A stretch of 33,618 nt of DNA from a virus, in the IMG/VR virus record IMGVR_UViG_3300027734_000198, positions 1 through 33,618 of that record; one strand, written 5' to 3'. Shown here piece by piece: positions 6,433 to 18,657 of the stretch (positions are counted from its first letter, which is position 1; each line of letters starts with the position of its first letter). The notes beneath the pieces were generated by a model, which ran no database searches, was not told the DNA's origin, and worked only from the letters and a program-made list of their open reading frames with translations. The position numbers and the translations under genes are program-made.

Positions 6433-7980
6433 ATGCTGAATTCATTTTCCAAAGCTCCGCGCCAGCAAGCCTCACAAACTGTTACGGTTGCCGCGCCAAT
6501 TGGGGGTTGGAATGCCCGCGATGCGTTGGGGGCAATGGATCCTTTGGATGCGGTGACGTTGCAGAACTTTTGGCCTGGCACTAACTCAGTTATTCTGCGA
6601 AACGGCTACACCAAACACGCCACGGGATTCCCTGGCACGGTTGACAGCCTAATGGCGTATTCGTCAGGTTCATCAAATAAATTATTTGCCGCAAGCGTAA
6701 GCAGTATTTATGACGCAACTAATCCTGGCGCAATTGGTGCGGCAGCGGTTGGCAGTCTGACTAATGCAAAATTTCAGTACACCAACATTACCACCGCTGG
6801 CGGCTCATATTTAATGGCGGTCAATGGTGCAGACAAGCTCAGAATCTTTAACGGTACATCATGGGCTAAGGATGGAGACGGCGCACCGTATGATATTACT
6901 GGCGTAAATACAGCTAATTGTTCAAACATTTTGTTGTTTAAAAACCGTATTTGGCTTATTGAAAATGGTAGTCTCAAAGTCTGGTATTTGCCAATAAATG
7001 CAATTGGTGGGGCGGCTGTGGCGCTGGATATGACCAGCTTGGTTCAGCAAGGCGGCTACATCATGGCGGGCATGACATGGACGTTGGACGCTGGCTATGG
7101 TGTAGACGACAACTTGGCGTTTATCACCAACAAGGGCGAATTGATCCTTTGGCGATTAACCGACCCGACCACACCGACAGGCATATCAATGGTGGGTTTG
7201 TGGAAGCTAGGCGCACCAATTGGTAGGCGTTGCTACACAAAGTTTGGCGGGGATTTGCTGATCATCACGCAAGATGGCATTGTGCCGATGTCGGGTGCAT
7301 TGCAAAGCTCAAGGCTTGACCCAAGGGTATCAATTACCAACAAAATCCAGTATGCGGTCAGTCAAGCGGTTAGTTCGTATTCTGATAATTTTGGGTGGTG
7401 CTTGCTGTATTACCCTAAAGAAAACCAGTTAATTATGAACGTGCCAATTCAAGCAGGGTATCAGCAGCAGTATGTGATGAACAACATTACAAAAAGTTGG
7501 TGTAATTTCACAGGTTGGGCGGCAACAAGTTGGGAATTGTTTAACGACAACCCCTATTTTGGCGGTGACGGTTATGTGGCGGCGGCGTGGAATGGCACAT
7601 CAGATGACTCTACCGACATTGATGGCTTTAGCTTGCAATCATTCCAAACCTATGGCACAGCCTTGCAAAAGCAATGCAAAATGATCCGCTACCACTTGCA
7701 AAGCGATGGATCACCAAGCGTTTTTGGAAACGTGAACGTGGATTACAACCTTGCGGATGAAGCCGCACAGCTTAACTTTTCTACAAGCATTTATGGCTTA
7801 TGGGACACAGGATTGTGGGATTCTGCCATTTGGGGGTCAGGGCTTGTGCCTAGCGCTGATTGGCAAGGTGCAACAAATATTGGTTATAGCTTTGCGCCGT
7901 TGTTAAAAACAGCAACGCAAGGCATACAATTGCAGTGGGTCGCAACCGACTTGGTATTCGAGGCTGGTGGTGTGCTTTGA
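6433..7980 (+). CDS. Large beta-rich tail/tail-hub protein
   Basis: A 515-residue protein that starts with a short basic tail, then APIGGWNARDALGAMDPLDA and TLQNFWPGTNSVILRNGY, a signature seen at the start of podoviral tail-tube or nozzle-type proteins. The rest has repeated beta-blade-like segments (for example SVSSIYDATNPGAIGAA, LAFITNKGELILWRL, GDLLIITQDGIVPMSGAL), consistent with a propeller. No transmembrane segment or catalytic motif is seen. It follows the adaptor, where T7 and P22 relatives carry the tail tube/nozzle gene. Assignment to tail tubular B or nozzle is by analogy only. Confidence 0.65.
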   Translation: MLNSFSKAPRQQASQTVTVAAPIGGWNARDALGAMDPLDAVTLQNFWPGTNSVILRNGYTKHATGFPGTVDSLMAYSSGSSNKLFAASVSSIYDATNPGAIGAAAVGSLTNAKFQYTNITTAGGSYLMAVNGADKLRIFNGTSWAKDGDGAPYDITGVNTANCSNILLFKNRIWLIENGSLKVWYLPINAIGGAAVALDMTSLVQQGGYIMAGMTWTLDAGYGVDDNLAFITNKGELILWRLTDPTTPTGISMVGLWKLGAPIGRRCYTKFGGDLLIITQDGIVPMSGALQSSRLDPRVSITNKIQYAVSQAVSSYSDNFGWCLLYYPKENQLIMNVPIQAGYQQQYVMNNITKSWCNFTGWAATSWELFNDNPYFGGDGYVAAAWNGTSDDSTDIDGFSLQSFQTYGTALQKQCKMIRYHLQSDGSPSVFGNVNVDYNLADEAAQLNFSTSIYGLWDTGLWDSAIWGSGLVPSADWQGATNIGYSFAPLLKTATQGIQLQWVATDLVFEAGGVL

Positions 7981-16397: not shown

Positions 16398-16739
16398 ATG
16401 TCACACTTTGCAAAAGTAGAAAATGGAATAGTAGTCAACGTCATTGTTGCCGAACAAGATGTCATCGACTCTGGCATCTTTGGGCACGGTTGGGTACAAA
16501 CCAGCTACAACACACACGGTGGTCAACACCCAGAGGGCAGACCTTTGCGTAAGAATTATGCTGGCATTGGTTATACCTATGACTTAGGCCGTGATGCGTT
16601 CATACCGCCACAACCGTATCCATCATGGATTATGAGTGAGGAAACTTGCCTATGGTCTGCGCCAACTCCAATGCCTATTGATGACAATCGTTATTCTTGG
16701 GATGAGCCAACATTGGCATGGATTGAGGTGGCAGTATGA
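16398..16739 (+). CDS. Conserved tail-associated protein
   Basis: A 113-residue soluble protein that starts SHFAKVENGIVVNVIVAEQD and contains WVQTSYNTHGGQHPEGRPLR, KNYAGIGYTYDLGRDAFIPP and aromatic-rich SWIMSEETCLWSAP and YSWDEPTLAWIEV. The same pattern (FAKVENGIV..VIVAEQ with NYA.IGYTYD) is widespread next to tail fibres in environmental phages, including T4-like marine phages. It is likely a structural or fibre-associated component; its exact role is unknown. AAGGAG precedes the ATG, and the stop overlaps the next ATG (ATGA). Confidence 0.7.
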   Translation: MSHFAKVENGIVVNVIVAEQDVIDSGIFGHGWVQTSYNTHGGQHPEGRPLRKNYAGIGYTYDLGRDAFIPPQPYPSWIMSEETCLWSAPTPMPIDDNRYSWDEPTLAWIEVAV

Positions 16740-16891
16740 CACCCGTTGAAGCCCGATTAGACACGCACGAACAGGTGTGCGAGTTCCGCTACGACAGCAT
16801 TAACGCCCGTTTAAAGCGCATTGAGCAGATTTTGATAGGGTCATGTGCCGCCATCATTGGTATGCTGTTGACGCTTGTTTTAAAGCTCTAG
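16736..16891 (+). CDS. XhlA-like small membrane protein (lysis region)
   Basis: A 51-residue protein starting at the ATGA overlap. Residues 1-30 are an amphipathic charged helix (MTPVEARLDTHEQVCEFRYD, then NARLKRIEQ), and residues 32-51 are one membrane span (LIGSCAAIIGMLLTLVLKL). This layout matches haemolysin XhlA-type phage proteins, which sit in the inner membrane and aid holin-driven lysis. The gene ends in TAG, and the same frame stays open after it into the next gene, so read-through would fuse the two. It is too short to assign with certainty. Confidence 0.65.
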   Translation: MTPVEARLDTHEQVCEFRYDSINARLKRIEQILIGSCAAIIGMLLTLVLKL

Positions 16892-16900
16892 GAACGTGAA

Positions 16901-17431
16901 ATCGAGCCGATCACGCTGGCGCTTGCTGCAATAGCCGGAATTAAGCAGGGCGTGGCTCTGTACAAGGATGCCAAAGCTGCGGGTACAGACCTTTACAAGA
17001 TCACCAAAGAAATCTCTGGATTCATTGGGCAATTCTTTGACGCACATGAGGAAGTCAAAAAGGACGTTAAGCGGCAAGAGCTTGACCCGCCCAAAACAAA
17101 ATCAATGAAAGCCCAAGCGCTTGAAAATGTGTTTCACCAGATTGAATTAGAGCGACAGTCGGTAGAATTGCGTGAGTTTTTGATCTACCACACAGACCCA
17201 GCGCTTGGTGCAGTCTGGTCACGGTTTGAGGAAGAATACAAAAAACTAAACGAGGAAAACGAGAAGCAGATTGAACTTGACCGCCAAATGGAGATGCAAC
17301 GCAAATGGCAACGCAAAAGAACAATAAGCAATCTGCAAGACAAGGCGCTAATAATCGGGGCAGTGCTAACGATTACTATATACCTCCACCTCCTCCTATG
17401 GTCAATCAAACAAATGACAACGGGCAAATAG
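16901..17431 (+). CDS. Membrane-anchored coiled-coil protein with apparent AUC start
   Basis: About 176 residues if it starts at ATC 16901. From there the sequence is (M)EPITLALAAIAGIKQGVALY, which matches the M(D/E)P(I/L)T start I know from similar phage proteins, and an AGGA site lies seven bases upstream at 16890-16893. The next in-frame conventional start, GTG 16952, would cut off that segment. The middle is a charged helix or coiled coil (FEEEYKKLNEENEKQIELDR); the C-terminus is one membrane span (ALIIGAVLTITIYLHLLLW). It lies between the XhlA-like gene and a second membrane gene. A lysis or virion-associated role is possible; the family is uncharacterised. Confidence 0.65.
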   Translation: MEPITLALAAIAGIKQGVALYKDAKAAGTDLYKITKEISGFIGQFFDAHEEVKKDVKRQELDPPKTKSMKAQALENVFHQIELERQSVELREFLIYHTDPALGAVWSRFEEEYKKLNEENEKQIELDRQMEMQRKWQRKRTISNLQDKALIIGAVLTITIYLHLLLWSIKQMTTGK

Positions 17432-17589
17432 TTTTTTTGATTTCACTGATTGCGGTGATGCTGATTTTGCCGTTGTTCTTATACTTGATGGCATCAATGT
17501 ACTTTGATATGCTAGTCGTGCAACAAGAAAACAAACAACAGCAGGCAATTATTCGCCGCCTCATTACTCAACTGGAGAATAAAAAATGA
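17305..17589 (+). CDS. Small single-span membrane protein overlapping its neighbour
   Basis: Ninety-four residues if started at ATG 17305 (GGAG eleven bases upstream), or 63 from ATG 17398, which has no ribosome site. The long form has a basic polar N-terminus, a run of five prolines, a strong hydrophobic segment (IVFLISLIAVMLILPLFLYL) and a short Gln-rich helix (VVQQENKQQQAIIRRLITQL). It overlaps the end of the previous gene by 127 bases in another frame, in the stretch that codes for that gene's membrane anchor. It may take part in lysis. It has no lipobox or spanin features. Confidence 0.6.
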   Translation: MATQKNNKQSARQGANNRGSANDYYIPPPPPMVNQTNDNGQIVFLISLIAVMLILPLFLYLMASMYFDMLVVQQENKQQQAIIRRLITQLENKK

Positions 17590-18095
17590 TTCCCATAGTC
17601 GCATCATTGCTTGGCACACTTGCCCAAAACGGCCTTGGCTTGCTATCTAGCGCCATTCAAGCCAAAGGCAAGGAAGTGGTCGAAAACACGTTGGGCGTAA
17701 AGATTCCTGACAACCCTACACCAGAAGACGTTTCCAAGCTAAGAGAGCTGCAATACGCACATGAGGAACGATTGCTCGAGCTGGGCATTGAAAAAGCCAA
17801 GATGGAACTAGCCGAGCTTGACCTGTTGGCAAGGGCCGCGCAAAGTGACGCAGATAACGTTACAGACCGTTGGCAAGCAGATATGTCATCTGACTCTTGG
17901 TTGTCCAAAAACATACGCCCCATGAGCCTTATAGCCATCTTTATGGGCTATTTCTTGTTTGCCATGATGAGTGCGTTTGGCTATAACGCAAATGAATCCT
18001 ATGTAACCCTGTTGGGTAATTGGGGGATGCTGATTATGGGCGCTTACTTTGGCGGCAGGACTGTGGAAAAACTTGCAGAAATGAGGAAGAAATGA
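17586..18095 (+). CDS. Holin, 3TM (GTA-type) superfamily
   Basis: A 169-residue protein. The N-terminal part has an amphipathic helix and charged coiled coil (KLRELQYAHEERLLELGIEK). The C-terminal part carries the signature DRWQADMSSDSWLSKNIRPM followed by two hydrophobic segments (SLIAIFMGYFLFAMMSAFG and LLGNWGMLIMGAYFGGRTVE). This DRW..DM.SDSWL.KN.RP pattern is diagnostic of the 3TM holins found in phages and gene-transfer agents. It permeabilises the inner membrane so the endolysin can reach the wall. It sits two genes before the M15 peptidase. Confidence 0.82.
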   Translation: MIPIVASLLGTLAQNGLGLLSSAIQAKGKEVVENTLGVKIPDNPTPEDVSKLRELQYAHEERLLELGIEKAKMELAELDLLARAAQSDADNVTDRWQADMSSDSWLSKNIRPMSLIAIFMGYFLFAMMSAFGYNANESYVTLLGNWGMLIMGAYFGGRTVEKLAEMRKK

Positions 18096-18322
18096 AAGCT
18101 AAATTAACTTTCCTTGTAACCCTGATGGTCAGCTTTACCCTGTGCATTGTTGTTGTTGGCATGGTTGGCGTTCTAATGGCTGGATTGTTTGACGAAAAAG
18201 TTGACAACGCAGAAATATTCAAACTAATTAGCCCAGCATTTCAAACTATTGTTGGTGGCTTTATTGGCTTATTAGCTGGCGTAAAACTGTCGCACGGTGA
18301 AATAGATGGAGAACAAAAATGA
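18092..18322 (+). CDS. Small two-span membrane protein (possible second holin/antiholin)
   Basis: Seventy-six residues from ATG 18092, which overlaps the holin stop as ATGA and has a GAGGAAG site upstream; the frame is open before this but that part lies inside the holin gene. Two hydrophobic segments (LTFLVTLMVSFTLCIVVVGM and FQTIVGGFIGLLAGVKL) flank a short acidic loop (FDEKVDNAEI). The place between holin and endolysin suggests it tunes lysis timing, as an antiholin or accessory holin. No family was recognised. Confidence 0.62.
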   Translation: MKAKLTFLVTLMVSFTLCIVVVGMVGVLMAGLFDEKVDNAEIFKLISPAFQTIVGGFIGLLAGVKLSHGEIDGEQK

Positions 18323-18657
18323 GCCTAAGCACCGAACAAGCCGCATTCCTTTTGGATGCTTGCAAACTGATTCAATACGCAACAGAACAAGGTTTTATGG
18401 TTACTGGTGGGGAGCTATCCCGCACACCAGAACAGCAAGCCATTTACGTCAAAACAGGCCGTTCTAAAACAATGAAATCCATCCACCTCAAGCGTTGCGC
18501 CATTGACCTAAACTTTTTCAAAGATGGCAAGATTATCTGGGACAAGGCCACTATTGCGCCTTTGGGTGTGTATTGGGAATCTTTAAATGTCAAAAATCGT
18601 TGGGGCGGTAATTTTTCCAATTTGGTGGATTGCCCGCACTTTGAGCGTAATGTTTAA
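18319..18657 (+). CDS. Endolysin, M15 family D-Ala/L-Ala-type peptidase
   Basis: A 112-residue zinc peptidase that cuts the peptide part of peptidoglycan. The M15 hallmarks are GGELSRTPEQQAIY (30-43), SIHLKRCAIDLNFF (54-67) with zinc ligands His56 and Asp63, and LVDCPHFE (102-109) with His107. YWESLNVKNRWGGNF lies just before the last motif. It has no signal peptide, so release depends on the holin. The length is normal for single-domain phage M15 enzymes. It ends four bases inside a small convergent gene on the other strand. Confidence 0.88.
   Translation: MSLSTEQAAFLLDACKLIQYATEQGFMVTGGELSRTPEQQAIYVKTGRSKTMKSIHLKRCAIDLNFFKDGKIIWDKATIAPLGVYWESLNVKNRWGGNFSNLVDCPHFERNV

Follow-up and report, generated by a model that had tools for sequence, protein, structure and literature searches.

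Translation of a gene in the lysis region of a virus contig almost certainly starts at AUC, the counterpart of an AUU or AUC codon that is conserved at the same position in its relatives, and this weak start has probably been kept by selection. The window, that is, the whole stretch of 33,618 bases analyzed, carries portal, terminase and major head protein genes. The gene (16901..17431, + strand) starts with ATC at 16901-16903, encodes 176 amino acids and ends with TAG at 17429-17431. Upstream on the same strand lies an ORF of 51 amino acids (16736..16891, ATG at 16736) with weak similarity to phrog_38642 (unknown function, E 0.0015) and phrog_1193 (hemolysin, E 0.024). It ends with a TAG at 16889-16891, in frame with the AUC gene and 12 nt before codon 1, and the frame from 16736 is open up to this TAG and then open again to 17431. 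A Shine-Dalgarno-like AGGA (16890..16893, + strand) overlaps the TAG and is separated from the AUC by seven bases. These elements, described in the initial annotation, were all verified in the sequence. That annotation left three options for the site: initiation at AUC, UAG read-through joining the two genes, or an ATG-to-ATC change in the assembly. The comparison of start codons among homologues backed the first.

Relatives were sought in viral contigs using short peptide patterns. The search was blind to the start codon because the patterns were internal to the protein, except for one (MDPVTAFA) which contains the N-terminus and whose only additions were distant rows and two further copies of contigs already known. 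The three lists of relatives were the best 80 of 199, 91 and 116, so that members with ATG may exist among the remaining relatives. In a first set, 73 of 74 loci were readable and codon 1 was ATT in 66, ATC in 5 and GTG in 2. The full set consisted of 390 sequences (389 loci and the window), of which 388 could be placed (L050 and L126 could not), and 16 rows that were distant or misplaced were excluded (L076, L077, L125, L189-L198 and L201-L203). Since the 372 ingroup loci that remained include repeats of the same contig, the 172 distinct sequences to which they correspond are the figure used here. Among the matches listed, codon 1 of these sequences was ATT in 147, GTG in 17, ATC in 8 and ATG in none; counted by distinct protein (163 among the matches listed) it was ATT in 138, GTG in 17 and ATC in 8. 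An ATT or ATC at the homologous codon in 155 of the 172 sequences, with GTG in the other 17, indicates that the unusual start codon is not a product of chance. The non-AUG start was thus correctly recognized, but AUC is a minority form of a start that is typically AUU.

The ATC of the window was also found in L001, L002, L009 and L021, which are separate contigs. An ATG-to-ATC error of assembly or sequencing is excluded by these four independent occurrences and, given that ATT predominates and ATG does not occur among the ingroup matches listed, its probability is negligible.

Several features indicate that codon 1 is the point where translation begins. In 154 of the 155 distinct ATT/ATC sequences among the matches listed, the stretch from the last in-frame stop to codon 1 contains no ATG, GTG or TTG, the exception being L058, and in 59 of the 155 the in-frame stop abuts codon 1 (57 TAA, 1 TGA and 1 TAG). 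The amino acid entropy, calculated over 143 distinct sequences, was 2.3-3.3 bits across all ten upstream codons, 0.46 bits at codon 1 and 0-1.06 bits in codons 2-5. The third-base entropy was 1.6-1.8 bits at codons 2, 3 and 5, silent wobble beginning at codon 2. As judged from these profiles, protein-level conservation switches on exactly at codon 1.

Codon 1 does not behave as an ordinary isoleucine codon in these alignments, and the alternative to ATT or ATC is GTG, a normal start. In the same 143 sequences the isoleucine codons at this position were ATT (121) and ATC (8), with no ATA, whereas ATA was the commonest of the internal isoleucine codons of the same genes (772, against 620 ATC and 598 ATT). 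On a tree of 143 proteins, built by a quick method that left 66 of 140 inner branches unresolved and gives changes without direction, the third base of codon 1 changed 6 times, compared with 15-27 times at five other isoleucine codons. Most of the ingroup of this tree carried ATT; six changes involved ATC and three involved GTG, the latter showing that AUU as such is not indispensable.

The same data bear on the possibility that translation really begins further downstream at a canonical codon, for instance the GTG at 16952, with the conserved codons before it left untranslated. This GTG, which the initial annotation had mentioned as another place where the product might begin, is indeed present at codon 18 of the window. 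However, the first downstream ATG, GTG or TTG is scattered among the relatives from codon 6 to codon 153 (6, 8, 18, 20, 36, 69, 77, 90, 102 and others), codons 2-17 combine conserved residues with silent third-base change, and a start at codon 18 would split the predicted first helix (residues 3-27). A downstream start is contradicted by these observations and is very improbable.

The sequences upstream of the gene were also informative. An upstream ORF of at least 30 amino acids ending near the start was assigned in 176 of the 183 loci of one relative set. These 176 ORFs grouped into 11 clusters that blastp did not connect at 1e-5; the largest had 121 loci and three were singletons. The ORFs ended in phases 0, 1 and 2 relative to the AUU/AUC gene. 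The gap between their stop and codon 1 was 0 or 1 nt in 120 of the 176 loci, and in 168 the two genes overlapped or were at most 12 nt apart. As these arrangements show, the gene has acquired several kinds of neighbor and yet has kept AUU, and the close spacing of stop and start suggests termination-coupled re-initiation.

The diversity of upstream neighbors also argues against a fusion of the two genes by UAG read-through or other recoding. In the window this explanation is favored by an upstream ORF in the same frame with its TAG 12 nt before the AUC. Among the relatives, on the other hand, no single frame relation is kept, the 11 clusters occurring in all three phases, and the in-frame stop that abuts codon 1 may be TAA, TAG or TGA, with UAA touching the codon in frame in 57 of the 155 distinct ATT/ATC sequences. 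Furthermore, GTG replaces ATT in 17 of the 172 distinct sequences among the matches listed, and there is no protein-level conservation in the ten codons that precede codon 1. Read-through as a general mechanism, already contradicted by these comparative data, has a very low probability. The observation that the gene itself ends in TAG, offered earlier as an argument against reassignment of UAG, held as judged on this gene, which gives no sign of a reassigned UAG. Taken together, the census, the lack of an upstream canonical start, the onset of conservation at codon 1 and the varied upstream ORFs lead us to reject assembly error, general UAG read-through and a start at the downstream GTG in favor of initiation at AUU/AUC.

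Nearly all AUU/AUC copies are preceded by a Shine-Dalgarno-like site at usable spacing. An energy of -4 kcal/mol or better was reached in 143 of 146 ATT, 8 of 8 ATC and 2 of 17 GTG sequences, while shuffled versions of the same upstream stretches reached -4 in 60% (ATT), 45% (ATC) and 43% (GTG) of the trials, so that the signal of the ATT sequences is moderate and that of the GTG set is below chance. One of five Shine-Dalgarno-like tetramers was present in 105 of the 146 ATT and in all 8 ATC sequences. In an earlier set the median energy was -6.0 kcal/mol for ATT, against -5.7 for 479 ATG ORFs of the same loci, -4.3 for shuffled sequences and -2.6 for other places in the loci. Fifteen of the 17 GTG copies lack the Shine-Dalgarno site; these belong to one clade with the same upstream stretch, whereas L047 and L078 keep an SD-like site. 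Since the site was kept with ATT and ATC and lost in most GTG copies, the better start codon goes with loss of the Shine-Dalgarno, although, with 15 of the 17 GTG sequences of one kind, this trade-off amounts to little more than one event. In bacteria, start codon and Shine-Dalgarno have been reported to be coupled (part of PMC5622118). The trade-off fits selection for a fixed low output, as far as sequence comparison can tell. In the GTG clade L112-L124, which has no Shine-Dalgarno, the upstream stop lies 1 nt before the GTG, and this start may depend entirely on re-initiation.

The starts of the neighboring genes were compared across the same loci, contig repeats included. The ORF that follows the AUC gene (17305..17589, + strand), which lies in another frame and overlaps its end by 127 nt, started with ATG in 147 of 155 loci aligned at its start (7 GTG and 1 ATC). 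The holin-like gene started with ATG in 141 of 146 aligned loci (5 GTG) and the endolysin gene in 136 of 136. Two further queries were left out of these counts: g18089, which was one codon off, and xhlA, which probably mixes internal positions of longer proteins. Judged by these counts, AUG is avoided at the AUU/AUC gene and not across the region.

The initial annotation mentioned relatives starting with M(D/E)P(I/L)T. Relatives with ATG at codon 1 do exist, but among the matches listed they were only distant ones, 29-41% identical (L125/L189, from one contig, L190, L191 and L201-L203, read by eye). In another group, comprising L192-L198, L076 (near 2498) and Limnohabitans phage DC31, an ATG directly precedes the ATT; L192-L198 and L076 read ATG-ATT-GAT-CC. 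L077, one of the rows set aside, was read by eye as GTG-CTA. These distant sequences suggest that a start reading Met-Ile-Asp-Pro once had AUU as its second codon, or that the ATG in front is a later addition. The ATG-ATT-GAT-CC relatives are a possible intermediate in the origin or the loss of the AUU start.

The AUU/AUC start could also be genuine but accidental: modular recombination would have brought other genes up against what had been the second codon, the ATG would have disappeared, and stop-coupled re-initiation would have worked well enough for it not to be restored. The ATG directly before ATT in the distant L192-L198 and Limnohabitans phage DC31, and the 11 clusters of upstream ORFs, are in line with this explanation. 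It does not account for the ATG that is only one substitution away from ATT and yet is found in none of the 172 distinct sequences among the matches listed, while three changes on the tree involve GTG, which is two substitutions away, nor for a codon 1 that changes less than five other isoleucine codons. We therefore consider an accidental origin quite unlikely and retain selection for a weak start as the preferred reading.

The fold of the start site was also analyzed. The median folding energy of the 60 nt around the start was -10.8, compared with -7.3 at a site 150 nt downstream, and in several loci the fold pairs the SD region with the opening codons of the gene. The z-scores against shuffled sequences for 18 stretches varied from -2.41 to 2.99, with 15 of them between -1.5 and 1.5. 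Native upstream/downstream pairs folded better than chimeras in 48% of 140 pairs (58 representatives, Wilcoxon p 0.62). A conserved start-site hairpin is not claimed, since the native pairs fold no better than the chimeras.

The protein encoded by the AUC gene is predicted to be all-helical. The model contained four helices (3-27, 32-61, 69-97 and 100-174) with a mean pLDDT of 87.4 and a pTM of 0.66, and a hydrophobic C-terminal stretch can be read from the sequence. Searches with the window protein retrieved no Pfam family at cut-off, no PHROG better than E 0.08 and no PDB fold match at E 0.001 or less. A search of viral structures gave nine matches at E 0.001 or less, all uncharacterised or unnamed, and in the 'phages' collection the protein gave three weak matches and the DNA none. 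The nearest viral model, A0A6J5LM43, is 56% identical and has 144 amino acids, the length left when relatives of 179 codons are started at the ATG of codon 36, their first canonical codon. This ATG is the first canonical codon in 67 ingroup loci, repeats included. The coincidence of length suggests that A0A6J5LM43 was probably truncated at the N-terminus.

Downstream of the AUC gene and the ORF that overlaps it are, all on the + strand, a gene for a holin-like protein (17586..18095; phrog_3427, E 6.7e-14), a small hydrophobic ORF (18092..18322; the ATG at 18092 was taken from the translation of an ORF starting at TTG 18020) and an endolysin gene of the M15 peptidase type (18319..18657; PF13539, E 4.2e-08). 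The AUC gene thus lies in a lysis cassette. From its position ahead of the genes for the holin-like protein and the endolysin, its product may be a membrane protein related to lysis; no other part of the interpretation is as weak as this one, and a role in lysis is proposed only tentatively. With the model and the gene order considered together, the best reading is a helical, putatively membrane-anchored protein of a phage lysis cassette. Elsewhere in the window, an ORF with an amidase PHROG of the lysis category (6433-7980, E 2.6e-117) lies far from the holin and endolysin genes, and a single ORF at 26756-27886 matches both ParB-like and DNA methyltransferase PHROGs, possibly as a fusion.

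We propose that the AUC at 16901 (AUU in most relatives) is presumably read by the initiator fMet-tRNA, so that the protein would begin Met-Glu-Pro. Ribosomes would reach it after termination at the stop codon next upstream or else through the SD-like site found before nearly every AUU/AUC copy. The codon would have been kept because initiation there is inefficient, so that less of this putatively membrane-anchored protein of the lysis region would be made than of the products of the ATG-started genes behind it. As with infC, initiation may also respond to IF3.

Raised IF3 lowers the full-length product from AUU with a CAU anticodon in vitro (part of PMC10158994), and IF3 discriminates against non-canonical starts, including the GTC of sigR (as described in part of PMC5472188). 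Control of the phage gene by IF3, argued from such cases, has in our view about an even chance of being right. A phage-borne initiator tRNA or IF3 was rejected as part of the system, neither being found in a record that is possibly a fragment: the window contains no tRNA genes, and the record gave no match to IF3_C. One bacterial carrier of the gene was found, a Comamonadaceae MAG (L110), in which the gene starts with ATT and adjoins a tail-type gene. The infC gene of this MAG starts with ATC behind AAGGA, with no canonical start between the stop and the ATC. IF3 was present in 15 of the 21 genomes of the MAG's neighborhood, the MAG included, and 11 of the 15 infC loci were readable. At the presumed start seven of these have ATC and one has ATA, with no ATG, GTG or TTG between the stop and that codon; in the other three the codon is ATC but a canonical one lies farther upstream. 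The putative link to IF3 is drawn from this one MAG contig and its relatives. In the MAG relative L239, infC has ATA directly after TAA and no ATG, GTG or TTG before the conserved region, which suggests an AUA start.

A more specific proposal, which we consider rather unlikely, is that the AUU/AUC start, coupled to whichever stop lies upstream, acts as a sensor of the host ratio of IF3 to ribosomes and doses a membrane-anchored lysis regulator. On that equally doubtful supposition, phages would use the same codon class by which their hosts autoregulate IF3.

Conserved near-cognate starts are already known from infC, pcnB, cvfC1 and sigR. The infC gene, encoding IF3, starts with ATT in E. coli and ATC in Streptomyces and is autoregulated by IF3 (according to part of PMC5472188). 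It resembles the phage gene in having a conserved near-cognate isoleucine codon instead of AUG, but it is a cellular gene whose own product is the factor discriminating against AUU. The phage gene has no relation to it and lies in a lysis region with its start against an upstream stop; by analogy, it too may depend on IF3. The AUU start of E. coli pcnB, which is said to limit translation (Binns and Masters 2002, as cited in part of PMC13009471), is shared with the phage gene, although pcnB is a chromosomal bacterial gene. In Staphylococcus aureus, ribosome profiling identified AUU and AUA starts in cvfC1 and ccpN, respectively, with an extended Shine-Dalgarno and a lower yield, the AUU start of cvfC1 being conserved among staphylococci (from part of PMC13009471, 2026). 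Like the phage gene, these have a non-canonical start behind a Shine-Dalgarno site; they differ in being cellular genes, and the stop-coupled arrangement of the phage gene is absent from their description, as far as that part of the source goes. The Streptomyces sigR gene also has a non-canonical start repressed by IF3 (part of PMC5472188), but the codon is GTC and the product a bacterial stress sigma factor. For phages, one annotation sentence of an announcement (PMC4599075) names AUU starts, and in that sentence no gene names, evidence or conservation are given. In a literature search that covered subscription journals thinly, no conserved AUU/AUC start in a phage gene was found among the matches listed, nor was a phage case with exchangeable upstream stops found in the literature searched.

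Gene callers restricted to ATG, GTG and TTG starts would consequently cut the N-termini of this phage family at inconsistent places, so that databases would record the protein wrongly. To our knowledge, AUU/AUC starts kept by evolution are otherwise known from a few bacterial genes. An AUU/AUC start kept behind 11 kinds of upstream ORF, in front of genes that start with ATG, would be a natural experiment on the worth of weak starts, and the family makes IF3-dependent and re-initiation-dependent control directly testable.
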